In this document: one piece after another, positions 6,362-39,361 of the stretch
How positions within the stretch are numbered: position 1 is the stretch's first letter
How the letters are laid out: the number at the start of each line of letters is the position of its first letter
Origin: Bretschneidera sinensis
Lineage: Eukaryota; Streptophyta; Magnoliopsida; Brassicales; Akaniaceae
Length of the DNA stretch: 64,000 nt
Direction of reading: 5' to 3'
Assembly (NCBI GenBank): GCA_023935145.1
Contig: CM043698.1
Span: forward strand, 73,857,501 to 73,921,500
Notes under the pieces: generated by a model
The model's input: only the letters and a program-made list of their open reading frames with translations
What the model was told of the DNA's origin: nothing
Databases searched by the model: none
Position numbers and translations under genes: made by a program

Positions 6362-6523
6362 TTTGAAGAAAAAAAGGATCAAAATTTTGAAAGACCAGAG
6401 GTGGCGGTCGGGTGATTTACGTGTTCCTTCCAAGTGAAATTTTTTTATTTTTCAAATAAAAAGAAATAGAAAGAAAGAAATGGGAAAAAAAGAAAAAGAA
6501 AAAGAAAAAGGAAAGCAAGAACG

Positions 6524-6547
6524 CGCTAGAAGGAGGGGTCGAACCTC

Positions 6548-6580
<33 letters not shown>

Positions 6581-6597
6581 AACTGAGCTATTCCAGC
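6524..6597 (-). tRNA. tRNA-Asn (anticodon GTT)
   Basis: The minus strand folds as a complete 74-nt cloverleaf. The acceptor stem pairs GCTGGAA with TTCTAGC (one G-T pair) and the discriminator base is G. The D arm has TAGCTCAGTTGGTTAGAGC, the anticodon loop is CTGTTAA (anticodon GTT), and the T arm contains GGTTCGACC. No intron is present. It looks like a functional nuclear tRNA-Asn and lies about 160 bp upstream of the PPR start codon on the same strand. Confidence 0.96.
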
Positions 6598-16762: not shown

Positions 16763-19221
16763 TGTAATACCCATAAATTGATATTATGTTAAATTAAATA
16801 ATTCATACATGAAATATTTGGTATTGATTTGAAGTAATATGTGAAAGATGATATTAATAAATTTATTAGAAAGGGTTTAAAAAAATTTTGAAGAAGAAAA
16901 TATTTAAAATACTGAAATTTGAAGTTTGAAATGAGATAATTTTGAAGAAAATTGTAGAATGAGGTTGAGGAAATTAATTAGAAATTTTATGGAAGAAAAA
17001 TATAAATTTCTATATTTTTCTATAATTTTTTAAAAGGAAGAAAGAATGAAAAAATGATTTTAATTGGATAATAGTACAACTGTAATTATGAAATGGTAGA
17101 ATTGTAAATAATGAATGACAAAACCGTAATATTTAAAGGTTGAGTGACCGGTGGCAGTTTCATAAATTAAATAAAAATTGAACCGGCACCTAGCCGATAG
17201 CCGATCGGAAGGCTAATGAAGGTTATGACTGCTGCTAATTTTGCAAATAAATGGACATTCTGAACCGATTGGTTGGTCAGATCGGTTTTCAGTATATAAA
17301 TTGAATTTTTGAGTTAAAATAAGTTTTATGAATCCGTTTCTCCCCTAATAATTGCTCTCTATCTCTTTCTAAAAATTATCTCTCTAGAAAACATAGAAAA
17401 ATACTTTTAAACACTTTAGGACTGAAAGAATTAATAATTGAATATTTAAATACTGAGATTTTTTGAAGTTCATAGAAGGATTTTCAACCAAATTGGGGAA
17501 ATAGCTTTAAAGAAAATATTTTTGAAATTTATTATGAAATTTTGAAGAATTGAAGTTATTTTCATAATCTCTTGAAATAAACTTTAAATTTGAATTCAAG
17601 CAAGAATAAAAAGAATTTCTGTTAAAAATACTGAAAGTTAAAATTTAAGACAGTTGAATTTTAATGCATACATGAAATTACCCGAATTAGGTATAAAAAA
17701 TTAAAAGTATGAATTACGGAAGAATTGAAGAATATATAGATTTTTAATAAAGACATTATAATAGGTGTTGGTGCTCAACAATTGGGTGAAATTGCTGAAC
17801 GGAGTAGGAAAGGAACGGAAGTTGTCCAAGAGTAGCTTTAAGTGTTACTAGGTGAGTTAGATTTACTTTTAGTAGTCGAAATAAATTTGAAATATAAATT
17901 TATGGTATTTGAATTAATTATTGAATTATATGATTGGACGATGTATTTATGATATATGATTTTGGTTGATAGATTAAGTATATAAAAATGAATAAATGAT
18001 ATGTTGGACAATAATTATATGAGAAGTTATATCTTTGAATTGATAGACTGATAAGAACTGAAGAACTAATGGAGTATATATTTTAAAGAGAAATGAAATT
18101 ATTGAAAGTCGTTATTGATAAATACATATGATATATGAAGAGACAAAAATAACAATTTTAAGAAAGATTTAGTTGAATTGTATGCTTTAATATATGTTTG
18201 CTTGCATGTTGTTGTTCATATGCATAAAAAGAAGACAGAGAATGAAATTGGTCTTACTTAAACATGTTGATATGTGGGAAGACATTCCATATACTAGAGA
18301 TTGGTATTTCCTATACTTTAATAGTATATAGTGATTCCCATACGTTGAATGTATGGAGAGATGGTGTGATGAGAAAGAAAGAACAAAAAATGATTTAAAT
18401 TCATTCATTTATTTTATTATTCTTGATTGAGATACTAAAGCATTAGTCCTGATTGTGAAATTATTGATAGACAGATAAGTCTCATAGAGATACATATATG
18501 ATGAGAAAAAATATGAAAAGATGATATGATAAAATTATTTGAATGATTGATTGTTGATGTGAACCTCATAACGAGGTAAATAATGATATTGAATTGATAA
18601 TGTTGAGATGATTAAATATATGAGAATAATATGTTTGATATATAATATATATTATTTGAAAGATTATAACTTGATGATTGATTTAAGAATAGACTGATAA
18701 ATGATTGGAATTATTATATGAATAAAGATAGAAGAATTTTATTGTTGAATTATCTATGAAATGGCAGCTGAAGGTATATTGGCAGATTACTTGATTATTG
18801 AATGATAAATTATGACTAGAAGTATACAATTGAGTACTTCTAGTAAATTTAATTCACTGAGCTTGTGAAGCCCACTCCTCATTATTGAAATATTTCAGGC
18901 TACGGGCAGGACAGATAAACAAATAGAGTTTAGAGCTGATATCTAGAGTGAGTAATTTATGTAAGTCCCGTGGTTAGCATCCTTAAACTAATGAAAGAGC
19001 ATTTTGAATTTTTTTAAATATTCATGCATTTTATATTATTATATATATTATTTTTGATAGGATAATGATGTTATATCTCCTCTGAAAATAGTTGAGGATT
19101 TGGATGTAATTTTACTTATAACTGATGTTTATTTTATATTGTTGCATATATGAGTCGTGTTGGGATGACAAAGCGTGACGACACCGCCTTAGAGGTGGCA
19201 AACCCGGGATAGGTTGCTACA
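16763..19221 (+). repeat. 5' LTR of the Gypsy element
   Basis: About 2.46 kb from TGTAATACCC to GGTTGCTACA. It matches the 3' LTR halves at 24216-25688 and 35920-36875 throughout, with frequent substitutions and small indels, for example in the end region GACGACACCGCCT..GGTGGC.AACCCGGGAT. A TATA-like TATATAAATT lies near 17292. The divergence between LTRs implies an old insertion. Confidence 0.85.
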
Positions 19222-19309
19222 ATTTTGGTATCAGAGCATTAGGTTTTATGGCTCTGTAGACTACATAAAAAGTAAGAAAGTGAAAGGTTAAAATAAATTA
19301 TATCTTAAT

Positions 19310-21066
19310 GCAGAGTCTGAGGATGCCACGTGGATGTGGTAGACCTAGAGTTAGAGATGCTGATTAATGAGGGCATGGTAGGCTCCCAATACTTAGACAA
19401 GTTGAGGTTGAGATGGAGGTTAAGTCTAAGTCTGTGGTTCCTGGAAGAGAATGTGTTGACAGTACAGTTAGAGCTAGTAGATGTGTGAAAGAATCTAGGG
19501 TTGGGAGAAACGAGCTAAGAGAAGCTCTTACTCGTGCTCTTGAGAGAATGAATACAACAGAGGATGGAATAATTGATAGTCTATAGCGTAGACTAGATGA
19601 GCAGGTTAGACTAGATCATGGGGTTGATGTAAATCCGGTGAGAAAGAATGTTCAAGAGTGGGGAGGTAAGTTTGTGCACGAGATGCGGGGAGATTGTTTT
19701 GTTAGATATATTAAGTTGAATCCTCTGTCGTTTAGAGGATTTGTGAATCCTTTTGAGGCTGGGTTATGGGTGAAACATGTAGAGAGACTGTTTGATGTAT
19801 TGCTAGTGATGGATAGACAGAAGGTTGTCTTTACTTCATTTAAGTTACAGGGAAAGGTTGCTGAATGATGGTAGGATACTCTTCCCATACTAAGTACAAA
19901 GGTTGATAGGCCATTAACCAGAAGTAGGTTTAAGGAGGCTTTCTTTGATAAATACTTTTCTTATACCTTTAGAGGCTAGTAAGAGAAAGATTTCATTTGC
20001 TTGAGGCAAAATGTGTTAACTATGGCTAAGTATGATAGCAAATTTGTGGCTTTGTCGATGTTTATGCCGAAGTTGGTAGATGCAAATGGGAAAAAGATAA
20101 GAGATTCCTGGATGGATTAAATTTTGATATCATATCAAAATTATCTTACATGAAGCATGAGAAATATGCCAAATTACTAGATATAGCACTTCAGATTAAG
20201 AAATATGTGATGGAATTTAGAAGAAAGAGGTAGTGGTTAAAGAGACCTAGATAGAAAGTTTCTAGAGGTGGTGGTGGCATGAGTGTATTAGGTGGGAGAC
20301 CACCCCAGATGGGGTGTTCCTATTCACAAAGATCTATGATGCAGAGCCAGAGACACATAGTGTCTGTAGCTCAAAGTAATGTGAGATCCCTAGATTTAGG
20401 AGACAGTATGTGGGAGCTGGAAGATATAGTAGAGGTGAGAATGTGCCACCCAGGAAAGATGGTAGTATGATGATTGAAAAAGAAACCAGAGCGTGTTATC
20501 GATGTAATCATATAGGACATTTGGCCCGATATTATCATACTTTGATGTATTTCATATGTGGAGAGTGTGTACACATTAGTGTTAATTATCCATTAGGTAG
20601 AGCTGCTGAAGTGAGTACTGGAGGTGTTGAGAGGAAACAAATAGAGAGAAGAGGTGGATCTAGAGGTGTTAAAGGCAAAACTTCAGGCATAGAGGCGGTT
20701 GTTGAGAAGGGGCGAGGTAGTCAGATGCAGCCCAGAGATAGCAGAGTTTATGCTTTGACCCAGCAAGATACGCAAGCTACTTCTGATGCTATTATGAGTA
20801 TGATATCTATTTTTGATAGACCTGCTAGATTGTTAATTGATCATGGTACAACTTATTCCTTTGCATCCAGTGTGTTTATAAAGTTTATTGATGTATATAT
20901 TAGTCCTTTGATGCATAATCTAATTGTTGAGGTTCTTACCGGAGATAAAATTATGATTAGAACCATTTATTGGGGTTGTGTAATTCGTATGGTTGATAGA
21001 GAGTTTGAAGTTGATTTGTTGCCTTTAAATATGATTGATTTTGATTTGATTTTGGGGATAGATTAG
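19310..21066 (+). pseudogene. Gypsy gag and protease, decayed
   Basis: Open pieces cover a gag capsid region (for example GFVNPFEAGLWVKHVERLF at 19740-19800) and a zinc knuckle in which the last Cys is lost (CYRCNHIGHLARYY, near 20490). The protease follows, where the active-site DSG/DTG is replaced by DHGTT (near 20840), then GVFPK-type sequence. Several stop codons and frameshifts interrupt the frame. Confidence 0.8.
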
Positions 21067-21199
21067 TTTTCAGCATATCACGCCTGGGCTGGTTATTTCA
21101 AGAAGAATGTAGTATGCATGACAAGATGAGTTTAGCTTTCATGGAGAACGTAAGATACTTGCAAATCGTCTTATTTCTTATCTAACTGCTAGTAGATAG

Positions 21200-22640
21200 T
21201 TGAAGAAGGGTTGTGAGGAATATTTGACACATATGATGGATTCTAGAAAAGAAGGTATGAAGTTAGAAAAAAATTTAGTGGTGCAAGATTTTGTTGGTGT
21301 ATTCCCTAAGAAGTTATCTGGATTGCCTCCCAGTAGAGAGATTGAGTTTTCTATTGATATAATTCCAAGTTTAGTACCTATATTTATAGCACCATATAGA
21401 ATGGCACTAGCTGAGTTGGGGGGGTTGAAAGTACAACTTCAAGAGTTGTTAGATAAACAATTTATCAGATCTAATGTGTCACTATGGAGAGCTCCTATGT
21501 TATTTGTGAAGAAGAAGAATGGGACAATGAGGTTATCTATAGATTATAGACAGCTAAATAAGATTACCATCAAGAACAAATATCTTTTTCCAATGATAGA
21601 TGATTTATTTGAGTAGTTACAGGGAGCAAGAGTATATTCAAAGATAGACCTAATTTCAAGTTATCATCAGTTGAGGATAACAAAAGGGGACATGCCTAAG
21701 ATTGCCTTTAAGACACAATATATCCATCATGAGTTCTTTGTGATTACATTTGGGTTGACTAATGCTCCTGCAACATTTATGAACTCGATGAATATGGTGT
21801 TTAAACCATTCTTAGATAAATTTGCAGTTGTTTTATTGATGATATTATGATGTATTCCAAGACTGAAAAGGAGTATGTGAAACATTTAAAAATAGTGTTG
21901 GAGATTCTAAGAAAAAAGATATTGTATGCAAAGTTCTCTAAGTGCGAGTTTTCGTTTAATGAAGTATCGTTCTTGGGATATGTAGTGTCAGAATGTGGTA
22001 TAACTGTTGATCCACAAAAAGTAGAGGCAGTGCTGAATTGGGAAAGATAGACCAATTCAACAGAAATTAGAAGCTTCTTGGAGTTGGTTGGATATTATAG
22101 CAAATTCATCCATAATATTTTTATTATTGCAGTACCATTGAGTAGGTTAACCAAGAAAAAAAGTGAAATTTATGTGGTCAGAAGAATGTGATAAGAGTGT
22201 TCAGTTGTTGAAAGAAAAGTTTACTAATGCTCTGATATTAGTGCTTCATTTTAGTGATGAAGAATTTGTGGTATACAATGATGCGTCACATCAGGGGTTG
22301 GGATGTGTATTGATGCAACATAGGAAGATTGTAGCTTATGTTTCTAGACAATTGAAGAACCAAAAAATAAATTACCCGACCTATCATTTAGAATAGGTTT
22401 CCATAGTGTTTACTTTGAAGATTTGGAGACATCGTTTGTATGGAGCCACTTGTGAGATTTTTATTGATCACAAGAGTCTAGCGTATTTTCCTACTCAGAG
22501 GGAGTTAAATTTGAGGCTGAGAAGATGGATTGAGTTTATTAGTGACTATGATTGTACGATTCACTATCATCCATGGAAGGCGAATATAGTGGCTGATGAG
22601 TTAAGTAGGGAGTCTTCAGGGAGGTTAACTGCTATTGGGA
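21200..22640 (+). pseudogene. Gypsy reverse transcriptase and RNase H, decayed
   Basis: RT motifs read in order but in different frames: [54 protein letters not shown] (21200-21616), then FIDDI (near 21835) and [18 protein letters not shown] (about 21940). RNase H follows with YNDASHQGLGCVLMQ (near 22277), [10 protein letters not shown] (near 22456) and [20 protein letters not shown]. Stops at 21614, 22048 and 22394 and frameshifts separate the pieces. Confidence 0.85.
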
Positions 22641-22829
22641 GTCATGATATGAATTTGATAGTAGGGTTGAGAGAGATGAGAATGTTATTGAATCTTAGTC
22701 ATAAAGGAAGATTAATAGCTAATATGGTAGAACAATCTTATGTTGTTGAACTTTTGTTGGAGATGCAGAGTAGAGTTGAGCAAATAGAGAAGATCAGGCA
22801 AGAGGTGTTAAGTGGGAAGCAAACTTAGT

Positions 22830-24170: not shown

Positions 24171-25688
24171 TGTAAGAAAATTTTAAGGACAAAATTTTTA
24201 TAAGGAGGGTAGAATTGCAATACTCGTACCTTAAAACAAGAGTAAAGAAGTAAATTGATATTATATTGAATTAAATAATGCATACATGAAAGATTTTGTA
24301 TTTATTTGAAATAATTTTTTAAAGATGATATTAAGAAATTTATTAGAAAGAGTTAAAAAAATTGAAGAATAAAGTACTGAAAATTATGAAATTTGAAGTT
24401 GGAAATGAGAGAATTTGAAGAAAAATGTGGAATGAGGTTAATAAAATTAAGTAGAAATTTTTTGTAAGAAAATATATATTTTTATATTTTTTTGAAGGAA
24501 AAAATGATGAAAAAATGGTTTTAATGGGATTTGGCAAAACTATAATTATGGAATGGAAAAATTATAAATAATGAATGGTAAAACCGTAAATTTTAAAGCC
24601 TGAGTGACCGATGACAGTTTTGTAAATTAAATGAAAACTGAACCGATCGATTACCTAGCCGACTGATAGGTTGGACCGGTCAACCGACTATGACAATTTT
24701 GTAAATAAATGAAGGTTGTGATCGGTGGTAATTTGGTAAATACATGGACAATCTATAAATTGAATTTTTGAGTTAAAATAAGTTTTAAAAATTTGTTTCT
24801 CTTTAAAAATTTCTCTCTCTCTAGAAAACATAGAGCAATATTTTTAAATACTTTGGAACTTGAAAAATTAATAATCGAAGATTTAAAGACTGAAATTTAT
24901 TGAAGTTTACGAAAAATTTTCAAAAAAATTGGAGAAATGCTTGAAAGATAATATTTTTGAAATTTAATATGAATTTTTGAAGTTATTTTTCAACATTTCT
25001 TGAAATAAACATTGAATTTGAATTCAAACAAGAACGAAAAGAATTTATGTTAAATGTACTGAAAGTTCAAATTTGAGGCAGTTGAAGTTTTATGCATACA
25101 CGAAATTACTCGAAATTGGGTATAAAAATTTAAAAGTATGAATTATGGAAGAATTGAAGAATATATAGATTTTTAATAAAGATATTATGATAGGCGTTGG
25201 TGATCAACAATTAGGTGAAATTGCTGAATGGAGCAGGAAATGAAAGAAAATTGTCCAATAGTAGCTTTAAGTGCTACTAGGCGAGTTAAATTTACTTTTA
25301 CCAATCGAAACAAATATGAAAAATAAAATGATGGTATTTGAATTAATTATTGAATTATATAATTGGATGATGTATTTATGATATATGATTTTGGTTGATA
25401 GATTAAGTATATAAAAATGAATAAATGATATGTTGGACAATAATTATATGAGAAGTTATATTTTTGAATTAATAGACTGATAAGAACTTATGAAGTATAT
25501 ATTTTAAAGAGAAATGAAATTATTGAAAGTCGTACTGATAAATACATATGATATATGAAGAGACAAAAATAATAATTTTAATAAAGAGTTAGCTGAATTG
25601 TATGCTTTGATGTATGATTGTTTGCATGTTGTTGATTATATGCATAAAGGGAAGATAGAGAATGCAACTGGTTTGGCTTAAACATATC

Positions 25689-26938
25689 TGTAGCTCGAGG
25701 TTTCAACCCAAGAGGGGGGGTGAATTGGGTTTTTAAAAACTTTTGCGGAATTTATACAAGTTTATAAAAACTGATAAGCAACAAATAATTGATACAAGTA
25801 GAAAGCTGTAAATAAAGAGTTTAAGGAAAGAGGATGCAAACACAGTTATAGTGGTTCGGCAATATCGGATTCGTTCCGACCCTACGTCCACTCTCTTCAA
25901 GGAACTCCTTGAAGTAATCCACTAAGAAAACTTAGTCGCACAACTTAGCCGGGTGTTGCACAAACCGTACACAAGCAATTTACAGGAATTGCTTAAACCG
26001 AAAAATCCCCTTCCTTTCGGAAGTTTCCCCTTCCTCTCGGAAGTAATCCCTTTACAAAGATGGTGTAAAGTAAAAGGTAGAGAGACAACAAATGAAAGCT
26101 TATTACAACAGAAATGTCTCTCTTTCAAAGTAAAGCTTGAAGAAATGGCTCAATAAGATTATTTCAAAGCTTTTTGTGTTTCAAGAGTATAAAAACTTGA
26201 TTATATGAGATCAACTCTTTTTGAATATGTGCTGCTAGTTGTTGAATGCTTTGCTGAGAGGGTTTATATAGCAATCAATTAATATGGCCGTTTTGGACTT
26301 TAATTTGAAAAAAATTTACTTTAAAACGTTCAGATTTGGAGTCCAACGGTCATATTTTTGAACTACCAGTCGACTGGGTCGAGATACCAGTCGACTGGGT
26401 TCACTTGAAAAATATACGTTTTCAGACCTTCTGGGTATCCAGTCGACTGGTATATATCATCCAGTCGACTGGGGACTTTCTGTCCATTGTGCCAGTCGAC
26501 TGGGTTGATTCATCCAGTCGATTGGGAAATTACTGGTCAAAGTACCAGTCGACTGGGTTAATTCATCCAGTCGACTGGGTACCTTCTGACCCATATACCA
26601 GTCGACTGGTATATGTACCCAGTCGACTGGGTTGTCTTCCAACCCAGTTTTTCTTCTGTTTTTCATTAAAAACATTTTAAAATTAATGGTTTTAGAAAAA
26701 CCATTTGTGTTTGAGCCATTAAACAAGCTAATACAATGTATGAGTGAGACTTACATTGGTTCTAAACCTTAAGACCTATACTAGATCTTCAGTCTTCACT
26801 TGATACTTGATTTGGTTCGAGTTTTTGCACTTTGTTCCTTGGTTGAATGTGTTTGATCCTTAATACAACTTAGTTTAAACATGTTAGTTAAATAACAGTT
26901 GTGTTTTGCCATCATTAAAATACGGGCGAGGGTCAACA
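25689..26938 (-). repeat. 3' LTR of the Sirevirus-like element
   Basis: 1250 bp, bounded by TG/CA on the plus strand (TGTAGCTCGAGG to GGTCAACA). It contains ten copies of the palindrome CCAGTCGACTGG, nine perfect and one with ATTGG, at 26366-26630, and a TATA box (minus strand GCTATATAAACC, 26261-26272). ORFs drawn across the palindromes translate them as PVDW/SRL-type repeats and are not genes. Confidence 0.93.
26366..26630. repeat. Cluster of CCAGTCGACTGG palindromes in the 3' LTR
   Basis: Copies start at 26366, 26387, 26439, 26461, 26492, 26514 (one mismatch), 26545, 26567, 26598 and 26619. Pairs spaced 21-22 bp recur. In element orientation the cluster lies in U3, about 100 bp or more upstream of the LTR TATA box. 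Confidence 0.92.
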
Positions 26939-27497
26939 ATCTCCCCCTTTTTGATGATGACAAAACTAATAATGTAAAAACAGTTTTAAAAACTAAGTGT
27001 TAAGATTTTACAAAAATTTGGACAGAGTCTCCTCTGTTTTTCGAGAAAAACCACCCTGTAAACAAGCAAACACAGTTTATATTTCTTTCAACCAATCCAG
27101 AATTAAACTCAACCAATCAATAAACATTTTTACACAGATATGGAGCAATGCTCCCCCTAAATCTATGCATTGGTTGCGTTTTTACTTAGATTTTCTCGTT
27201 ACTTAGATTTTCTCGTTTTTCTCATTTTTCTCCCCCGTTTTGACAACAGCAACCAAAGGGGGGCAGAACAATCAACAAATAAGCTATGAGACAAACAGAT
27301 ATTTAAAAACAGTTCTAACATATCACAAATAGCTTAAATAAATGCAAGAAATATGGCTTATAGTTATTACATCATCATAGAAAAAGTCAATACAAGTAGA
27401 GTCTTATAGAGCCATAACTAAGAAAAACAAACATGAGATGTCCGTGCTAAGTGACAAATACTGGAAAAGTGCTAAGAACTGATTAAATGAATGAGAC

Positions 27498-28754
27498 TCA
27501 TGGTGCGGGAGAGTCCGAGCTGTCACGAAGAAGTTCCCTAATCTCAGCTAGGGAACCCTCGGTGTGCTCTCGATGTAACTCGAAGTCATCCCGTAGGTGG
27601 TCTATGGAGGAGCTCAGCCTCTGATAATCGGACTGCATGGACTGAAAACCAGACTCCATCGTCATCTGAAGACTCGCGATAGCTCGTAGGATGTCACCAT
27701 ATCCAGTCTGACCAGTACTCGAGTCACCAATGGGAGGTGCTCGGGTATCTGTCTCCATCTCAGCAGCCGTATCAGCATCCTCATCACTGTCACTCGCATC
27801 CTCTCGAATCCTTAGGCGTTTTCCAGCCTTAGGATAGAGAAACCCTTCACGAACAGTACATCCCATCTTCTTTAGAGATGAGATGTTGATGATATCCGTC
27901 AATCCGATATCCTGAGCCTCGGAGGCAGGCAAAGGTACCCGGAAGTGCTGGAGGATGAGTGTAATGAGCATCCCATAAGGAAGACACCCGGAGTCGTTTG
28001 CTTCACCGTTTATCATGTTGGCGAGCAGCAGAGGATATATATTGAAGTGGTGCCCAGATTTTAGGCACCAAATCAATACCGTATCTATTTTAGATAGATA
28101 CCCTCGACTCCCGAGTCTCGGGTGGATGGTCCAACTGACAATCAATTGAAACATTTTTGAGTCGAGGGGCAAGTCACTACATGTGTGAAATGTAGTGGGT
28201 TTGTACACATAGTTAGGGTCGCCCCTGACTATCCGACAGGCCTCCTCAACTTCAAAGTTGTCTGGCCATCCATCCAGACTCCATTGAACCCCCCTTATAG
28301 GGATTCTCAGAATGCTCATCAAGAGGTCAGTGTTGACCTCAAACTCCACACCGCTAACTCTGGTTCTGAATCTCAGAGCCAGAGGACTGGGTTTCACCAA
28401 GTTAGCATAGAACTGGTGAATCAGTCGCGGGTAATATTTTTCATGAATACTGACCAGTGGGGTCAGATTTATTGCCTCAAAGGCTGGTAGAATATCGAAA
28501 TTACCATGACGAATGGAGTCGAAATCAACGACTCTACCCGTCATGATTTTCTTGTGACGGATTATAGAGTTATACCTCTTATGAGCAGCTGGGCTGAAAA
28601 ACAGAGCCTGCTCCAACTCTGTTCTGGGCTCCTTGCTGGATGACCCTGCTACTCCCTTCCCTTTTGATTCCGAAGCCGAAGGTTTTGAAGACCTAGGCTT
28701 TTTGGGCGTATTAGGTCCACTTGTTGTGAGTTTTATACGGATTTTGTCACTCAT
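27498..28754 (-). CDS. Extra ORF (ORF3, 418 residues) of the Sirevirus-like element
   Basis: The ORF begins at ATG 28754 and has no stop for 418 codons. It is in the sense direction of the element, between pol and the 3' LTR, where Sireviruses often carry an envelope-like or additional ORF. The N-terminus is basic and Ser/Lys/Pro-rich (residues 1-50). A central globular part follows (YYPRLIHQFYANL..SGVEFEVN.DLLMSILRIP), which resembles the domain known as putative plant transposon protein. Residues about 325-345 are acidic, and residues about 355-410 look like a coiled coil (LQMTMESGFQSMQSDYQRL). I see no signal peptide or clear membrane segment, so it does not look like an envelope protein. 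A TATA box and nine perfect palindromes lie upstream (28963-29320). Function unknown. Confidence 0.85.
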   Translation of the reverse strand: MSDKIRIKLTTSGPNTPKKPRSSKPSASESKGKGVAGSSSKEPRTELEQALFFSPAAHKRYNSIIRHKKIMTGRVVDFDSIRHGNFDILPAFEAINLTPLVSIHEKYYPRLIHQFYANLVKPSPLALRFRTRVSGVEFEVNTDLLMSILRIPIRGVQWSLDGWPDNFEVEEACRIVRGDPNYVYKPTTFHTCSDLPLDSKMFQLIVSWTIHPRLGSRGYLSKIDTVLIWCLKSGHHFNIYPLLLANMINGEANDSGCLPYGMLITLILQHFRVPLPASEAQDIGLTDIINISSLKKMGCTVREGFLYPKAGKRLRIREDASDSDEDADTAAEMETDTRAPPIGDSSTGQTGYGDILRAIASLQMTMESGFQSMQSDYQRLSSSIDHLRDDFELHREHTEGSLAEIRELLRDSSDSPAP

Positions 28755-28962
28755 TTTCGAGAAATTTGAAGTTTTTGGAAAAAGGAAATTTGGTAAAAAT
28801 GAGAGATTTTAACCGTAGAAAGTTAAAAATCTCTTTAGGAATGAGTAGATCGGTGTGTTTAGAAGGGATTTGGATGGTTTTTAGATCAAAAAGATGAATT
28901 TTTCTAGAGAGAGAAAGCTTGGGCTCTTTGAAAATGGCGTAAAGAGGGCGAAAATGAACAGT

Positions 28963-28975
28963 CCCTTTTATAAAA
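28963..28975 (-). promoter_or_regulatory. TATA box of a putative internal promoter for ORF3
   Basis: The minus strand reads TTTTATAAAAGGG, about 210 bp upstream of the ORF3 ATG at 28754, leaving room for a normal leader. The nearest palindrome (28984-28995) lies 8 bp further upstream. It lies in the pol-ORF3 spacer, outside the LTRs. Confidence 0.55.
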
Positions 28976-28983
28976 TCGCGATA

Positions 28984-29320
28984 CCAGTCGACTGGGTAAA
29001 CTTACCAGTCGACTGGGCCCCTTTGAAAAGATGAACAGTTCTCTTACCAGTCGACTGGGTAAACGTACCAGTCGACTGGATTAACTGACAGTGAGATAAC
29101 AGTCTACTGGGCTATCGTTACCAGTCGACTGGAGGTTCATAAAAATGAAAAAAATTTGGCTCCCAGCAGGATTTGATCTTATAGACGACTGGAGAAGACT
29201 TACCAGTCGTCTGGAGTTTTTGGCAGAGAGTTACCAGTCGACTGGGTTAAAATTACCAGTCGACTGGACAATCAGGCAGTGACTTACCAGTCGACTGGAT
29301 CACATTTACCAGTCGACTGG
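28984..29320. repeat. Cluster of CCAGTCGACTGG palindromes in the pol-ORF3 spacer
   Basis: Nine perfect 12-bp palindromes start at 28984, 29005, 29047, 29068, 29121, 29234, 29256, 29287 and 29309. Diverged copies occur near 29099 (ACAGTCTACTGG), 29183 and 29203 (CCAGTCGTCTGG). Several pairs are spaced 21-22 bp apart, about two helical turns. The linker sequences differ from one another. The same palindrome is clustered in the LTRs. Confidence 0.9.
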
Positions 29321-29462
29321 ACCATTAGTAAAATTTCCAGTCTTGAATTTATAGCACGAATTTGTTTATCTATGACATTTTTGAGTGAAGGGAATAATTA
29401 AACATGGATTAATACTCTATCACTCAATGTCAAACTTGCAAATGATGAAATGTGAGATGCAA

Positions 29463-32400
29463 TCAAACATTCAATTTATCAAAATCAAGCAATCCCATCA
29501 ACTTTCTTATTTTGCAAAAACTAGCTTCACTTAAGGGTTTTGTAAGAATATCAGCTATTTGATCTTCTGAAGGTATAAATTCTAATCTTATATCACCTTT
29601 TTGAGCATGGTCTCTTAAGAAATGATGTCTAATCTCTATATGCTTGGTTCTAGAGTGCTGAATAGGATTTTTGGTTAGGTTGATGGCACTAGTATTATCA
29701 CAAAATATAGGAATATTTTTGAGACTCATGCCATAGTCTTCTAGTTGTTGTTTCATCCATAGTACTTGGGCACAACAACTGCCAGCTGCTACATATTCCG
29801 CCTCAGCGGTTGATAGTGCAACTGAATTCTGTTTCTTGGAGAACCAAGAAGTTAACATAGCACCTAAGAATTGGCATGTTCCACTTGTGCTTTTTCTATC
29901 TAACCTACATCCAGCAAAATCAGCATCCGAATATCCTACTAGCTCAAAAGATGATTCTCTAGAATACCATAATCCTATGGTCTGGGTCCCTTGTAGATAT
30001 CTAAGGATTCTTTTTACTGCAACTACATGTGATTCCTTAGGATTAGATTGAAATCTAGCGCACATGCATACACTGAACATTATATCAGGTCTACTTGCAG
30101 TCAAGTACAGTAAAGCACCTATCATGCTTCTATAATATTTAGAATCTGCATTTTTACCTCCTTCATCAAGATCAAGTTTGGTGGTTGTGCTCATAGGTGT
30201 TCTAATTGGTTTTGAGCTTTCCATCCCGAACCTCTTTAGTAGATCTTTGACGTACTTTTGTTGATTGATGAAGATACCTCCTTTTAGTTGCTTGATTTGC
30301 AGTCCAAGGAAGTAGGTAAGTTCTCCCATCATGCTCATTTCAAATTCACCTTGCATGCACTTTGCAAACTCTTGACACATAGATTCATTAGTAGCACCAA
30401 ATATAATATCATCAACATATATTTGAACTATCAAAGTGTCATTTTTGTGAGTTTTTGTGAAGAGAGTTGTATCTATTTTTCCTCTTACAAAATCATTATC
30501 AATCAAAAATTTGCTTAGTCTTTCGTACCATGCCCTTGGAGCTTGCTTCAGCCCATATAAAGCCTTAGAAAGCTTGTAGACATGATTTGGAAGACTAGGG
30601 TTTTCAAAACCAAGAGGTTGTTCAACATAAACCTCTTCTTCTATAAAGCCATTTAAAAAGGCACTTTTCACATCCATTTGAAATAGCTTGAATTTATTAA
30701 AGCATGCAAAGGCTAATAACATTCGAATAGCTTCTAATCTAGCTACGGGAGCATAGGTTTCATCAAAATCTATTCCTTCCTCTTGGTTATATCCCTTAGC
30801 AACTAGTCTAGCCTTATTTCTAGTTACTATACCATTTTCATCCATTTTATTTCTATATACCCATTTAGTTCCAATAATTGAATGATCTTTAGGTCTTGGA
30901 ACTAGTTCCCAAACATTGTTTCTCTCAAATTGATTTATCTCTTCCTGCATTGCAATTATCCAATCATTATCTTTTTCAGCTTCTATAAATGTCTTAGGTT
31001 CTACTTGAGACAAATAAGCTACAAAATTACAAATATTTCTAATGGAAGAGCGAGTTCTTACCCCTTGTGAAGGATCACCAATTACTTGATCAATTGGATG
31101 ATGATTTACATACCTCCAATCCTTGGGTAGATTTTCCTCTTGTTGACTTGAGGATGGTTGGTCCAAATTTGGAGTTGCCATCCCTTCATTTGTTTGAGAA
31201 GAACTCACTTTTGGGTCAACAATGGGAGTAGAAGTTTCCATTCTTGGAATAAAATCTGCATCATCTTTAAAGGAAACTTCTCCACTACTCATTGGGTTAG
31301 ATTCATCAATAGTTACATGCACAGATTCTTCTACTACTAGAGTTCTCTTATTGAAAACTCTATAAGCCTTACTAGTAGTAGAATATCCTAAAAATATCCC
31401 TTCATCGGTCTTGGAATCAAATTTACCCAAGTTAGTTTTATTGTTATTTAAGATGAAGCACTTACTACCAAAGGCACGAAAATAGGAAATATTTGGCTTT
31501 CTCCCTTTCCATAGTTCATAAGGAGTTTTATCAAGCAGGGGCCTTATCAAAATTCTATTTAAAATATAGCAAGAAGTATTCACGGCTTCAGCCCAAAAAT
31601 ATTTTGGTAAATTATTTTCACAAAGCATTGTTCTTGAAAATTCTTCTAGAACTCTATTTTTCCTCTCAACAACTCCATTTTGTTGAGGAGTTCTAGGAGC
31701 TGAAAAGTTGTGATTAATTCCATTTTCATCACAAAATTTTGAAAAGCTTTGATTTTCAAATTCTTTGCCATGATCACTTCTTATGCTTGAAATACAAATT
31801 CCTTTTTCATTTTGTACCTTTTTGCAAAACTTTTCAAATCCTTTGAAAGCTTCATCCTTATAAGCAATAAAAATAACAAAGGTATATCTTGAATAGTCAT
31901 CAACAATAACAAGAGCATATTGATGGCCACCTAGACTAATGGTACTAATTGGACCAAATAAGTCCATATGCAAAAGTTCCAAAGGTCTAGTAGTTGAGAC
32001 AACATTTTTTGCTTTGAAAGATATCCTTGATTGTTTTCCCATTTGACAAGCATTGCAAATTTTGTTTTTCTCAAAATTGATTTTAGGAAGACCAATAACT
32101 AAATCTTTTCTTGAAACAATTTTTAGCAAGTTCATATTTACATGACCAAGCCTTCTATGCCATAGCCATTGATTTTCACTAAAAGCAGGAAAACATTTTT
32201 CATTATTGGAATGTAAGGATTTCAAATCAACTATATAGACATTTTCATGTCTATGGCCAATGAATTTGATCTTGTTGCTCTTGATGTCTATAACTAGACA
32301 ATGAGAGGTTTCAAATGTGACTTTATATCCTTTGTCACATAATTGACTAATGCTAAGTAAATTTGGCTTTAAGCCTTGTACTAGCAATACATTATCTAAA

Positions 32401-32585
32401 GTTGAGAAATCATTACCGACTTTTCCATGCCCGATGATCTTTATTTTAGTATTGTCTCCAATGGTCACAAGTCCACCATCTCTTAGAGTTAGCTCCTTGA
32501 ATACGCTTTTATCACCGGTCATATGCTTCGAGCAACCGCTATCAAGGTACCAACAGTTACCTTTCTCCTTGGTATGAAGGCAAAT
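29463..32585 (-). CDS. Sirevirus-like pol (PR, IN, RT, RNase H)
   Basis: The frame continues directly after the gag TAG: the aspartic protease motif [14 protein letters not shown] lies at the start, upstream of the first ATG at 32522. Integrase follows, with [16 protein letters not shown] zinc site, [23 protein letters not shown] and [15 protein letters not shown] has [48 protein letters not shown] and the catalytic YVDDIIFG. RNase H has [31 protein letters not shown] and [15 protein letters not shown]. All catalytic motifs are present and no stop interrupts 1019 codons. Without its own start codon ahead of the protease motif, expression most likely needs read-through from gag. Confidence 0.94.
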
Positions 32586-34640
32586 CTACATCACACAAGG
32601 ATATACGATAGCATTTTTAGGTACCCAAAATTTCTTGGGTCCTTTGGGGTTAGTCCTTGAAAATACGGTTCCTTTTGGGACCCATACTTTCTTAACAATA
32701 TATGGTGCTCTATGAACATGTTGATGATGCACATACCTAGCATTATAGTCATAGAAATTTCTAGGAAATTTTACATGTGCATTCCTATAATCCTTAGGAT
32801 GATAGTTCCTAGGATACATGATTCTACGGTAAGGGGTATGAAAATGCATGTCATTTCCAGAAAATGAACGATGATGCATTCTAGGATACATGCTAGCATA
32901 TGTATGCAAGTTATTTCTAGAATAGCCATGATGGTGATTCCTAGGATGAGCAGAATGCATTCTTTGATTATACACATTGTTCCTAGAATGAGCATGATGA
33001 TTATTTCTAGGATGTGTATGAGCATTTCTAGAATGAGCATACAAATAAGCATGAGTATTTTTAGGATGCTTCAATTTAGTATGATCATTTAAGTTTCTAG
33101 AGTTCCTCGGATTTATTAAGGGAGTGCTTTTAACAAGGTTAGGAGCTTTCGAAGTAGAAGCTCCATCTACACAAGAGGCTTTCATGAATAAGCTCTCTTT
33201 TGTTTTTTGTTTTCCCAATGGAGAATATCCTACACCAGATTTTCCTCCACTTAATCTTTGGGAAGAAAGCACTTCATCAAGTTTTTCTTTACCAAGCATA
33301 AGTCTAGATACAGTGCTGTTTAATTCAGAAATTTTATTTTTCAAATTCTCATTTTCATCTTTAAGAAAATCTTGAGACGAATTATACAGTAAAGATGATA
33401 ATTTTTCTTTTTCTTCTCTAAGAACTATCATTTCCTTAGAAAGAGATGATACTTCTTTCTTAAGAACAGAATTTCTAGAATCAAATTTCTTTAATTCTTC
33501 ATGCATTTCATTTATGACTTCTAGTAATTCTTCACTACTAGTAACAATATTATTTTTTGAAGAGGGAGAAGATGTTACCTCACTTTCATCATCGATTGCC
33601 ATTAAACAGAGGTTGGCAATCTCTTCGTATCCAATTTCTTTGTCTGATGACTCATCTTCTTCGTCATCGCTCCAGGTAGTTGCTACCATAGCTTTCTTCT
33701 TGAAGCCCTTGTATGGTTTGCTTGAAACTGGACAGTCAGCTTTTATATGTCCTGGCTTCTTGCAGCCATAGCACATAAGTGGTTCCCTTTTTGAGGTGGG
33801 ATCCTTTGAGTAAGGTTTCTTGCTTTTCTTCAAGAACCTATGGAATCGTCTGGTGATTAAAGCCATTTCACCATCCTCTTCACTGCTCTCTGCTTCTTGT
33901 TCTAATTCCTTTTCTTTGTTGCTCGTAGAAGCTTTGAGAGCAATTTGCTTCTTCTTCTTCTCATCATCATTGACGATGGGAGTCATTTCTTCCATCTCGT
34001 ATGTCAATAATGACCCAAGCAGCGTCTCAACATCAAGCTTGTCAAGATTTTTGGCCTCTTGAATGGCTGTCCTCTTTGGTTTCCATTCTGGAGGTAGAGA
34101 TCTTAAGATTTTTCTGGTTAGTTCAACTTCCTCAATATTCTTGCCAAGCAATTTTAAACTATTTATAATAGTAGTAAATCGTGAGTGCATTTCAGAAATG
34201 GTTTCATTAGGAGACATCTTAAAAGATTCATATTCAGAAATTAGCATGTAAATTTTAGACTTTTTTACTTCACTTGTTCCTTCATATGTGACTTGCAATT
34301 TGTCCCATATTTCTTTAGCAGAAACGCATGCAGATATTTTGTTATATTCAGAAATATCTAAAGCACAATGTAGCATGCTTGTTGCTCTGCTATTGAGAGA
34401 CATTGTTCTACAATCCTCGTCAGTAAACTCAGTTTTGAGTTTAGGCATTGTATGAAGAGTCTCTCCAATAACTATTTCTTTTGAGGGAATTTTAGGTCCC
34501 TCTTCTATAATTCTCCATAGATTGTAATCTTGTCCTTCGACGAAGATTTTCATTCTATTTTTCCAGTAGTTATAATTTGATCCATTGAACAATGGAGGTC
34601 TAGTATAAGAGTGTCCCTCAGAGTAGCTATTTGCTGCCAT
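32586..34640 (-). CDS. Sirevirus-like gag (684 residues)
   Basis: The ORF starts at ATG 34640 (MAANSYSEGHSYTRPPLFNG), with the N-terminal NYNYWKNRMKIF typical of Copia gag, a capsid-like helical region, and a CCHC zinc knuckle beginning at C290 (CYGCKKPGHIKADC). An acidic segment and a coiled-coil-like region around residues 375-470 (EELLEVINEMHEELKKFD, EKEKLSSLLYNS) follow. Residues about 525-645 form an unusual His/Asn/Arg-rich repeat region (HSRN, HPRN units). Gag is the capsid protein that packages the element RNA. The ORF ends at a TAG (32586-32588) in the same frame as pol, so pol may be made by read-through. The length fits the long gag of Sireviruses. Confidence 0.93.
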   Translation of the reverse strand: MAANSYSEGHSYTRPPLFNGSNYNYWKNRMKIFVEGQDYNLWRIIEEGPKIPSKEIVIGETLHTMPKLKTEFTDEDCRTMSLNSRATSMLHCALDISEYNKISACVSAKEIWDKLQVTYEGTSEVKKSKIYMLISEYESFKMSPNETISEMHSRFTTIINSLKLLGKNIEEVELTRKILRSLPPEWKPKRTAIQEAKNLDKLDVETLLGSLLTYEMEEMTPIVNDDEKKKKQIALKASTSNKEKELEQEAESSEEDGEMALITRRFHRFLKKSKKPYSKDPTSKREPLMCYGCKKPGHIKADCPVSSKPYKGFKKKAMVATTWSDDEEDESSDKEIGYEEIANLCLMAIDDESEVTSSPSSKNNIVTSSEELLEVINEMHEELKKFDSRNSVLKKEVSSLSKEMIVLREEKEKLSSLLYNSSQDFLKDENENLKNKISELNSTVSRLMLGKEKLDEVLSSQRLSGGKSGVGYSPLGKQKTKESLFMKASCVDGASTSKAPNLVKSTPLINPRNSRNLNDHTKLKHPKNTHAYLYAHSRNAHTHPRNNHHAHSRNNVYNQRMHSAHPRNHHHGYSRNNLHTYASMYPRMHHRSFSGNDMHFHTPYRRIMYPRNYHPKDYRNAHVKFPRNFYDYNARYVHHQHVHRAPYIVKKVWVPKGTVFSRTNPKGPKKFWVPKNAIVYPCVM

Positions 34641-34695
34641 TGGATCAACTCTAGGAATTTAAGCCTTATAAAGAGAACGAAGCTCTGATACCAAT

Positions 34696-35914
34696 TGTAG
34701 CTCGAGGTTTCAACCCAAGAGGGGGGGTGAATTGGGTTTTTAAAAACTTTTGCGGAATTTATACAAGTTTATAAAAACTGATAAGCAACAAATAATTGAT
34801 ACAAGTAGAAAGCTGTAAATAAAGAGTTTAAGGAAAGAGGATGCAAACACAGTTATAGTGGTTCGGCAATATCGGATTCGTTCCGACCCTACGTCCACTC
34901 TCTTCAAGGAACTCCTTGAAGTAATCCACTAAGAAAACTTAGTCGCACAACTTAGCCGGGTGTTGCACAAACCGTACACAAGCAATTTACAGGAATTGCT
35001 TAAACCGAAAAATCCCCTTCCTTTCGGAAGTTTCCCCTTCCTCTCGGAAGTAATCCCTTTACAAAGATGGTGTAAAGTAAAAGGTAGAGAGACAACAAAT
35101 GAAAGCTTATTACAACAGAAATGTCTCTCTTTCAAAGTAAAGCTTGAAGAAATGGCTCAATAAGATTATTTCAAAGCTTTTTGTGTTTCAAGAGTATAAA
35201 AACTTGATTATATGAGATCAACTCTTTTTGAATATGTGCTGCTAGTTGTTGAATGCTTTGCTGAGAGGGTTTATATAGCAATCAATTAATATGGCCGTTT
35301 TGGACTTTAATTTGAAAAAGATTTACTTTAAAACGTTCAGATTTGGAGTCCAACGGTCATATTTTTGAACTACCAGTCGACTGGGTCGAGATACCAGTCG
35401 ACTGGGTTCACTTGAAAAATATACGTTTTCAGACCTTCTGGGTATCCAGTCGACTGGTATATATCATCCAGTCGACTGGGGACTTTCTGTCCATTGTGCC
35501 AGTCGACTGGGTTGATTCATCCAGTCGATTGGGAAATTACTGGTCAAAGTACCAGTCGACTGGGTTAATTCATCCAGTCGACTGGTATATGTACCCAGTC
35601 GACTGGGTTGTCTTCCAACCCAGTTTTTCTTCTGTTTTTCATTAAAAACATTTTAAAATTAATGGTTTTAGAAAAACCATTTGTGTTTGAGCCATTAAAC
35701 AAGCTAATACAATGTATGAGTGAGACTTACATTGGTTCTAAACCTTAAGACCTATACTAGATCTTCAGTCTTCACTTGATACTTGATTTGGTTCGAGTTT
35801 TTGCACTTTGTTCCTTGGTTGAATGTGTTTGATCCTTAATACAACTTAGTTTAAACATGTTAGTTAAATAACAGTTGTGTTTTGCCATCATTAAAATACG
35901 GGCGAGGGTCAACA
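34696..35914 (-). repeat. 5' LTR of the Sirevirus-like element
   Basis: 1219 bp and nearly identical to the 3' LTR; one substitution was noticed near 35319 (AAAAAG versus AAAAAA) plus loss of one 31-bp palindrome unit. Nine palindromes lie at 35373-35606. The TATA box at 35269-35279 (minus strand) would drive the genomic transcript. Confidence 0.93.
35373..35606. repeat. Cluster of CCAGTCGACTGG palindromes in the 5' LTR
   Basis: Same array as in the 3' LTR but with nine copies (eight perfect, one with ATTGG); one repeat-plus-linker of about 31 bp is absent. It lies upstream of the TATA box at 35269-35279 in the direction of the genomic transcript. Confidence 0.92.
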
Positions 35915-36875
35915 ATATCGATATGTGGGAAGACATATCCATATACCATAGATTGATATTTCCTATGCTTTAATAGTATAGAGTGATTCTCAAATGTTGA
36001 ATGTATGGAGGGATGATGCGATGAGAAAGAAATGTGATTTAAGTTCATGAATGTATTTTATTATTGTTGATTGAGATGCTAAAGAATTAGTCTTGATTGT
36101 AAAATTATCGATAGACATATTAGTCTCATAGAGAGACAAACATGATGAGAAAAAAAATGAAAATAATATATGATAAGATTATTTGAATGATTGATTGTTG
36201 ATGTGAACCTCATAACGATGTAAATAATGATATTAAATTAATGATGTTGAGATGATTAAATATATGAGAAGAAAATTGATATGTTTGATATGTAAGATAT
36301 ATTATTTGAAAGATTATAGCTTGATGATTGATTTAAGAAAAGATTGATAAATAATTGAAATTATTATATGAATAGAGATAGAAGAATTTTATTGTTGAAT
36401 TATCTATGAAATGACAGTTGAAGGTATATTGGCGGATTGCTTTATTATTGAATGATAAGTTCTGACTAGAAGTATATAATTGAGTATTTTTAGTAAATTT
36501 AATTCATTGAGTTTGTGAAGCTCACTCCTCATTGTTGAAACATTTCAGGTTGCAGGTAGGGCAGATAGACAAATAGAGTTTAGAGCAAATACCAAGAGTG
36601 AGTAATTTATGTAAGTCCCGTGGTTAGCATCCTTAAACTAATGAAAGAAAGATGAAAGAAATTTTTGAAAAGTTGTAAATATTCATGCATTTTATTTTAT
36701 TGTATATATTGTTTTTGATAGGAGAATGATGTTGTATCTCATCTGATGTTTATTTGGATATAATTTTACTTTCAGCTGATGTTTATTTTATATTGTTTCA
36801 TATATGAGTCGTGTTGAGATGACAAAACGTGACGACACCGCCTCGAGGGTGGCCAACCCGGGATGGGTCGTTACA

Positions 36876-39361
36876 AGTACATAGCCACATAAGCCGCAAC
36901 ACCGCTACATTTCATTAAACAATCAGTTCCATGACCAAAGAGTAAACAAACAAGAACAAGTATGTTGAAACCATCCTTCCGAAATCCATCTCATTTTCCT
37001 TCCTTGTGAGGTGCATAAAATGTTGGATCAAATGCCTTAGAAACAAGGTGTGATTTTCCTTATACTAGGTATGACACTGTAGGTTAAGAGAGAATATATA
37101 ATCTAGTAATCTTTTTTTAGTATATTGGATTAATTAATCAAACCTCATATTTATAGAGTACCAAAGGTCACTGAACATAACTCTTCTCATGTAAAAGATA
37201 TGTCTCTCCCAACATATACAGTGTGAAGGATTGTGTCTCTAAAGAAATGATCCTACACATCTCACTAATGGTAATAAGCATGCATACTTGTCTAGATCCA
37301 TCAGCTCCTGCTTGTGCATACTATATTACCATAGTCAAATTGCTAAAATATGGACATTGAGCAAGCCTAAGTAAGAGTTTCGTGACTCCTTCTATTCTTC
37401 GTCAAGATCAAATTCATCTCTTTATGAGTGGTCATTTGATAAACCCCATGTGTACATGACTTTTCGTGAACCAAACTATCCAACTGCACCTTTCCCCCAT
37501 TAGTATCTACCCTCGCATCAATGGTTACGTAGTGACTGTACGCTACAATAAAAATGATTGCATGACCTTAAGTACCAGAGTGAGACATCCTAAATTCCAT
37601 TCCACAAACCGCAAAAGGGTTTTAGTTAAATCATTGGCTGATGCTCAAAATTTAACTTACGTTAGACCCTAACTACTTCCTCTCTAAATCACATCGTCGA
37701 GAGGATTAGTTTAATTTTCATTGAGATTATCTAATGAATTTTGTATTACATCATATGACTTTCTAAAATCCCCTAACCATTTTCAATGGACTTCACATTC
37801 TCTGAAGGTTCTTAGTTAAGCCCAACATTAGGTTAGTACCTTTCCACCTTAAGCATTGACCAATGCCTGGTGGAACTTGTGTCGACGACACCCTCATTTG
37901 AGCATCCTTATTTCCCGTATTCACTCTCGACACCACTCGAATGATATCTTAATACCTAGGTCTTAAGCCCATTGAGATAACATGTACTTGATCTCTTGGT
38001 CATGAAATCCACCCCCATTTCTATAAGATACGTAAATAATCCTCTATTTCACCATTTCCCACTAAATCTAGTTTACAGATAATCCATATTTATATTATTT
38101 TTCATTGAGCTATTAGCTCTATACTTAATCAATGAAATAGAGAATTTTTTTACCATCTAACACACTATCTTGAAGTGATACAAATATAATCATATTTTAT
38201 TGGTTAGTCATTTTGGTATGGGTTGTTCCTTCATAGTATGTCTCACCAAGCTTCTTTGTTCCTTGCTTAACCAAGTAACAGTCATTTCTTTGAAAGAAGC
38301 CAACGTCCTCTTGTGGACTTTTTATCATTTTTTTCCAGCAAAGTCTACGTTTGAGTTTATATAAACTCTAGGTTAGCTAGTTCAAAGTTAAACTTCATTT
38401 TTAATTCAACCTAACAAGTATCTTAACATCCTACTCACTACCTACCAATAAGCTTTTCCAAGATTAGTCTGATAATTACTCACTAATCCTATCCATGGTA
38501 TGAATATGTCCTTATGTTCGTCAAAACACAAATGAGTTTTTCACATTTAGTGCAAATGTGTCCTTGCATTACAGGTCTTAAAATCTATAGCACAACCAAC
38601 TCTCCCAAAAGCCATGACTGATGGGAATGTAGCAACTAATCATTTTAAACCTGAACGTTGCCCATACAACACAAAACAGATCGGGTAGTTAGTCCCTCGA
38701 ATGGTTAGTCTCGTGAGCACAAGGTGACTGTTGGACCCCATAAATCCAATAATCTCCCCCCAACACCAGGTTGGGAAGTCTCAAACATATAACTTTGCCT
38801 ATTCTATCCATCTCAACCTCGGTTATTAGACTCTTATTATGCATATGTGAGGCATATGGGAGCCATCAAATCTTCTAAGGATATTTTTTTAAATACTTTC
38901 TCGATCTAGATGTAACAATTTAGATCATTTCTTCTGTGATTCTAATTCCAAGAACATAAAGCGTTTCTCTAATATTATTATCTCAAATCTAGATCCCAGA
39001 TATGATATCTTCTTATCATATATGTACAAGCAATTTGTCGTGAACAATATTTCTATTTCTTTAGATTTTCATACATGTCAACCATCAACAAATATGTACT
39101 TTTCAAATCTATAACAAGCTTTTGAATTTTTATTGTTTATCATCGTCATTTTAGATCTTTTATTCGCATTAACTTGAACATCCAAATATTATCCAAACTC
39201 AAATTCTTATATGTTAGGGTCTAACTACTCGGGAAACATTTTTCATGCTTCTAAGAGTTTGGAATGCGCTTGTTAAAGTCTTTAAAGTAACTCCGACTTC
39301 TTATAAGATTCGGGAGCGTTTTCGAGTCAATTTGAGTCATCTCTTTAGTAGTTTCTTCATC
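36876..39361. other. Diverged repeat-derived DNA, possible remains of a Copia 3' LTR
   Basis: No gene is seen. On the minus strand a GGGGGGAGATTATTGGATTTATGGGG-like junction (in part, 38735-38765) resembles a Copia polypurine tract followed by an LTR start, which would fit the decayed Copia pol just above. The putative LTR could not be paired with another copy. Confidence 0.35.

Follow-up and report, generated by a model that had tools for sequence, protein, structure and literature searches.

A dyad array with an adjacent TATA box as a candidate internal promoter for the extra gene of a Sirevirus-type retrotransposon

The spacer between pol and an extra open reading frame, ORF3, in a Sirevirus-type retrotransposon holds a cluster of palindromic dyads with a TATA box beside it. 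On balance, though with little to spare, we judge the two together to be an internal RNA polymerase II promoter for a separate capped ORF3 mRNA, with one factor serving both this cluster and its counterpart in the LTRs. Dyads in both places, a ladder of spacings common to the two, the adjacent TATA box, an ATG-free, G-poor leader and an open ORF3 are all present in the sequence itself. Initiation near position 28940 would yield the separate capped mRNA. The factor would be a dimeric host protein that binds the dyads along a single face of the helix, and its action on the spacer and LTR clusters alike would place the genomic RNA and the ORF3 mRNA under coordinated control. All of the features of the element described below lie on the minus strand of the window, ie the whole stretch of 64,000 bases that was analysed.

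An internal promoter in a Sirevirus-like element had been proposed, as a surprise, in an earlier sequence-only reading. The element type, the dyads, their phasing and the plausibility of a core promoter before ORF3 have stood up to analysis. The surprise has not, as the architecture was published in 2010 for nine Sireviruses, in support of a hypothesis dating from 2002 (PMC2829016). According to the same source, the expression of the extra genes of Sireviruses was still unsettled in 2010, an internal promoter having been proposed in 2002 and none identified. The present element offers a compact test case, being young and structurally complete, with about 570 bp accommodating the dyad ladder, the TATA box and an uncluttered leader. 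If both promoters obey one factor, an LTR retrotransposon would be expressed by a two-stage programme and not from one promoter.

Structure and surroundings of the element

The element, of the Ty1/copia type, extends from 25689 to 35914 (10,226 bp) and is structurally complete in its LTR ends and its flanks, which carry the 5-bp target duplication GATAT. The 5' LTR (34696 to 35914) is 1219 bp long and the 3' LTR (25689 to 26938) 1250 bp. Between them there is one substitution, and one 31-bp dyad unit is absent from the 5' LTR; the insertion is therefore very young. That 31-bp unit (35585; 26578-26609) is the sole indel between the LTRs, from which it follows that the dyad array changes by the gain or loss of units.

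The gag open reading frame (32586 to 34640) encodes 684 aa with one CCHC knuckle. Behind it, in the same frame, is the open frame of pol (29463 to 32585; integrase, RT), and matches to Retrotran_gag_2, rve and RVT_2 are those expected of Ty1/copia. A single TAG at 32586-32588 separates the two frames, and may reflect natural recoding or a flaw in this particular copy.

The Sirevirus sits inside a repeat which has an almost contiguous paralogue at 16774-19222 (sides 82% and 86% identical). The two paralogous repeats, 16774-19222 and 24251-25685 plus 35920-36876, surround matches to retroviral protease and RNase H (20380-22825), and are probably the LTRs of a gypsy-type element, one of them interrupted by the Sirevirus. 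PPR/DYW gene fragments (3624-6451) and a tRNA-Asn gene (6523-6597), both on the minus strand, fit a plant genome.

Sirevirus features

Most of the Sirevirus marks tested are present, which bears out the original description of the element as Sirevirus-like and places it with the known ENV/RM-box kind. The published LTR/PBS junction is CA/ATTGG followed by TATCAGAGC (PMC2829016), and the junction here reads GCTACA|ATTGGTATCAGAGC. The same paper gives, as a further mark, the polypurine tract AGGGGGAG, placed 10 bp ahead of a 3' LTR that has an AT/TG attachment site. In this element the terminal octamer (26941 to 26948) starts at 26948, the LTR starts at 26938, and the junction is GAGAT|TGTTG. 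Further copies of the tract occur in the Sirevirus linker, four on average with a table minimum of three (PMC2829016); fewer exact ones are found here, namely two octamers (27158 and 26948), with one 7-mer match at 27236. The inverted repeat which borders the terminal tract in Sireviruses (PMC2829016) is seen as GTTTTGTCATCATCAAAA and GTTTTGCCATCATTAAAA, identical at 16 of 18 positions. Of the 19-bp integrase signal, the C-rich part was compared and is present as CCCCCCC, 25 bp from the LTR end; the published average for the signal is 21 bp (PMC2829016). The Copia domains and the large gag with its single CCHC are also typical.

RM boxes are defined by at least eight copies of a palindrome per element, in the upper half of the LTR and, in ENV carriers, also before ENV (PMC2829016). 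This element has nine exact copies of one palindrome in the upper half of the 3' LTR and nine before its extra gene. As the CGG-CCG core is absent from the palindrome, CCAGTCGACTGG, we file it as a variant RM box and not as a standard one.

Number and position of the dyads

The window contains 26 exact CCAGTCGACTGG dyads, compared to none in 100 dinucleotide shuffles, and the next commonest four-letter 12-mer palindrome occurs twice. Eight of the dyads are in the 5' LTR (35373-35606), nine in the 3' LTR (26366-26630, the first being 308 bp into that LTR) and nine in the pol-ORF3 spacer (28984 to 29320); the window has no exact dyad outside these three regions. When sites with up to three changes are counted in, the totals become nine in the 5' LTR, 10 in the 3' LTR, where the added site (start 26525) has one change, and 12 in the spacer, where the three degenerate sites start, on the element strand, at 29214, 29192 and 29110.

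In the spacer, TAA follows the exact dyad in seven of nine copies, compared to none of the nine in the 3' LTR (Fisher 0.002). Dyad and TAA together yield CTG|GTAAGT, and there are three CTGGTAAGT words in the spacer, one of them after the degenerate dyad at 29214. Scored as 5' splice donors with an approximate splice matrix, their donor positions (29288, 29204 and 29006) rank among the best 0.1% of GT sites. The dyad-TAA habit may reflect common descent of the unit or a function at the RNA level.

Spacing of the dyads and divergence of their linkers

The recurring spacing of 21-22 bp noticed in the first reading is found in four of the eight gaps among the exact spacer sites; the rest are 31, 113, 53 and 42 bp. 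With degenerate sites included, gaps of 21, 22 or 31 bp account for nine of 11 in the spacer and eight of nine in the 3' LTR, the remaining two in the spacer being 60 and 42 bp. A 53-bp dimeric unit, dyad-9/10-dyad-19, is present in both spacer and LTR arrays. Most gaps amount to two, three, four or five helical turns; an exception is the 113-bp gap between exact spacer sites, at 10.76 turns. R, a measure of phasing, has a value of 0.895 in the nine exact spacer sites (at 10.5 bp) and of 0.957 in the 10 sites of the 3' LTR (at 10.6 bp). Jittered gaps reached the observed R in 0.06% of 20,000 draws for the spacer and in none for the 3' LTR. The proposal that neighbouring sites share a helix face is thus supported, and can be extended to the 31-bp gaps. 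Phasing of this kind can also arise as a by-product of the tandem duplication of one 53-bp unit.

Column identity in the dyads is 92% for the 12 spacer sites, degenerate ones included, and 98% for the 10 sites of the 3' LTR; in the 9-mers flanking the dyads it is 32-49%. Linkers matched in length (9, 10 or 19 bases; nine of 11 in the spacer, eight of nine in the 3' LTR) were then compared, leaving out two spacer linkers and one 3' LTR linker of odd length. Their similarity within one cluster is 0.52-0.89, except for one pair of LTR 9-mers at 0.11, and between clusters 0.26-0.36, compared to 0.26-0.32 for shuffles. As the linkers are unrelated between clusters, and dyad and spacing are alike, word and spacing have been kept where the linkers have not. 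The kept dyad and ladder indicate that both the DNA word and its phasing are constrained. Because the linkers of the two arrays resemble each other only at about the shuffle level, the arrays were either amplified separately or have lost their likeness in the linkers; an origin of the spacer array as a recent copy of the LTR array is not supported. The sharing of word and spacing despite unrelated linkers provides what we consider the best new argument that one factor may act on both arrays. Gene conversion of the short dyad word may be another source of the likeness.

The repeats could also be read in quite a different way, with the arrays serving mainly as hairpin or silencing repeats (templates for small RNAs, CG/CHG methylation) or being passive tandem units, and the TATA box being incidental. 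RNA folding of both clusters is predicted to be far stronger than that of shuffles (z of -11.2 and -12.5), both contain the 53-bp tandem units, and what the 5' LTR lacks is exactly one unit of 31 bp. In maize, the small RNAs of Sirevirus LTRs are concentrated at the palindromes (Bousios 2016, as cited). However, the spacer array sits just ahead of ORF3, and its dyads have been kept while the linkers drift, and we regard a role chiefly of this kind as doubtful. A silencing or hairpin role is in any case compatible with a promoter role, as a 2023 maize paper suggests.

The putative core promoter and the ORF3 leader

For the internal promoter, the reading that we prefer, the candidate core is TTTTATAAAAGGG at 28963 to 28975, with its TATA starting at 28972. 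The TATAAAAGG box begins 12 bp downstream of the last spacer dyad, so that the nine palindromes do lie directly upstream of it, and it is 218 bp ahead of the ORF3 ATG at 28754, close to the 210 bp first estimated. Transcription is predicted to start 32 nt beyond the first base of the TATA, at an A that follows a T (28940), and a pyrimidine-rich stretch lies between the TATA and this T-A step. The predicted leader (28755 to 28940) has 186 nt, no ATG and 6.5% G, and its C-minus-G skew ranks among the highest 2.5% of 180-bp windows. It leads to an ATG in the context GAAAATGAG. A plausible core promoter ahead of ORF3 is supported by these features. The TATA word alone is weak evidence, since TATAWAW is frequent in the window (1.36 per kb per strand; TATAAAAGG occurs three times in 128 kb of strand), and TTTTATAAAA, which is its own reverse complement, gives the promoter no direction.

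Up to the ORF3 ATG there are 386 nt free of ATG, a run which ranks seventh by length among 2,770 on both strands. The absence of ATG is not significant here, because it is explained by the base make-up (P = 0.80 for 186 nt and 0.15 for 383 nt, doublet-preserving shuffles). By the same kind of shuffle the predicted LTR leader of 605 nt, with no ATG and 6.0 expected, is exceptional (P = 0.0008). No ATG-free run in the window is longer than the 720 nt (34640-35360) which begin 83 nt before the LTR TATA, take in the TATA region and continue to the gag ATG.

The palindrome clustered upstream of the LTR TATA box (TATATAAA, 35270 to 35277) is indeed the same dyad as in the spacer. The motif-TATA architecture which the two regions were said to share is, nevertheless, alike only in its coarse form. 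The TATA starts 12 bp past the last dyad in the spacer and 96 bp past it in the LTR, and a close likeness around the two boxes is contradicted by their surroundings, which are dissimilar by eye.

An upstream TATA at 29353 is less likely to be the main start, since three ATGs (29325, 29305 and 29140) lie downstream of it. A formal CpG island in the spacer cluster is not shown: CpG o/e is 0.72, compared to 0.26 in gag-pol, at a G+C of only 46%.

ORF3 might instead be expressed, in the style of a retrovirus, from a spliced LTR transcript, using a donor in the 5' leader and an acceptor in the spacer, in which case the dyads would be no promoter. By the splice matrix, the spacer has acceptor-like sites ending at 29021, 29085 and 28904 (top 3.6%, 7% and 9.5% of AG sites, respectively), and there is a donor-like site in the leader at 34973 (top 2.3% of GT sites). 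As the LTR leader is also free of ATG, ribosomes would scan such an mRNA to ORF3 equally well, and predicted acceptors are reported for the ENV of BAGY2 and Athila (as cited in PMC2829016). The matrix is approximate, however, and by its scores no acceptor and no leader donor is outstanding. The strong donor-like words sit inside the spacer array, on the wrong side for a route from the LTR leader, and splicing leaves the dyad cluster and the TATA box without explanation. We think this route unlikely.

Pol and ORF3 are in one frame, and a third alternative is translation of ORF3 from the full genomic RNA, by stop readthrough, reinitiation or an internal ribosome entry site. SIRE1 uses suppression (as cited in PMC2829016). 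Readthrough of the SIRE1 type from pol into ORF3 is excluded here because 13 in-frame stops intervene; the spacer ahead of ORF3 holds, in addition, five ATGs and the strongly folded array. ORF3 expression from genomic RNA by any of these means is highly improbable.

The ORF3 protein and searches for relatives

ORF3 (27498 to 28754) encodes 418 aa, with a match to Pfam PF20167 (Transposase_32; E = 2.6e-15) and a predicted long C-terminal helix. In an otherwise poor single-sequence structure model, with a mean pLDDT of 39.2, confidence is confined to this helix, residues 349-413, where block pLDDT rises to 88. There is no transmembrane segment in ORF3, the highest 19-residue Kyte-Doolittle mean being 1.19 and the usual cut-off about 1.6. 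In sunflower, an Athila element is reported to have the PF20167 domain in an extra ORF too (PMC11728184).

Of 5,625 candidates for ORF3 in a protein collection none was a match at E = 0.001, and a comparison with solved structures gave two matches only, with E values of 0.21 and 0.29. Scans of viral_contigs with the ORF3 and pol proteins returned 11 and six pattern stretches, respectively, and no relatives among them. The dyad-pair pattern gave no stretches in viral_contigs and three in genome_contigs, all from one Myxococcales MAG and judged unrelated. A full-text literature search located the exact 12-mer CCAGTCGACTGG in four papers, with titles unrelated to retrotransposons, and no functional test of the palindromic boxes was found in the open-licence literature.

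A further suggestion makes ORF3 itself the transactivator. As a nuclear coiled-coil dimer it would bind the dyads of its own promoter first and then those of the LTR, in a feed-forward loop like that of foamy virus Tas, and palindromes would differ between Sireviruses according to the specificity of each ORF3. The basic N-terminus, the long C-terminal helix and the lack of a membrane segment are compatible with such a protein. ENV-less Sireviruses also carry LTR boxes, which tells against the suggestion. We consider it highly improbable.

Comparison with known systems

The internal promoter proposed here finds a likeness of working, not of kinship, in foamy virus, where an LTR promoter and an internal promoter, the latter serving the 3' genes, answer to one factor, Tas (PMC12789967). 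In both cases one retroelement would have two promoters, LTR and internal. In foamy virus, however, the internal promoter is situated near the 3' end of env and the virus itself encodes the factor, whereas a host factor is proposed for the present element. Grande, of maize, belongs to the Ty3/gypsy superfamily. Its gene23 is likewise an accessory gene that has a promoter to itself and lies between pol and the 3' LTR (as cited in PMC7264820), but it is antisense, the superfamily is another one, and a palindrome array is not mentioned in the account cited.

The closest parallel is that of the 13 Sireviruses in which palindromic boxes were found (Bousios et al. 2010, PMC2829016). The nine with ENV have boxes in both LTR and linker, 77 of the 79 linker copies being upstream of ENV, and the four without ENV have no linker boxes. 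The authors took the boxes to support the hypothesis, put forward by Peterson-Burch and Voytas (2002), of an internal promoter, with the promoter itself not conclusively identified. The present element resembles theirs in size, LTR length and junction motifs, and in having many copies of a palindrome clustered before the LTR TATA and again before the extra gene. That gene is ENV in their elements and here ORF3, which has the PF20167 match. The CGG-CCG core is missing from CCAGTCGACTGG and, among the published boxes, only from that of Tnd-1; with the Vitis box, CGGTCGACCG, our dyad has the central GTCGAC in common. Where no conclusive promoter was given for the earlier elements, a TATA starts here 12 bp after the spacer cluster. 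The architecture is already in print, and what is new, as read from the sequence, is a further member whose dyad is of a non-CGG type and for which a specific core promoter can be put forward as a candidate.
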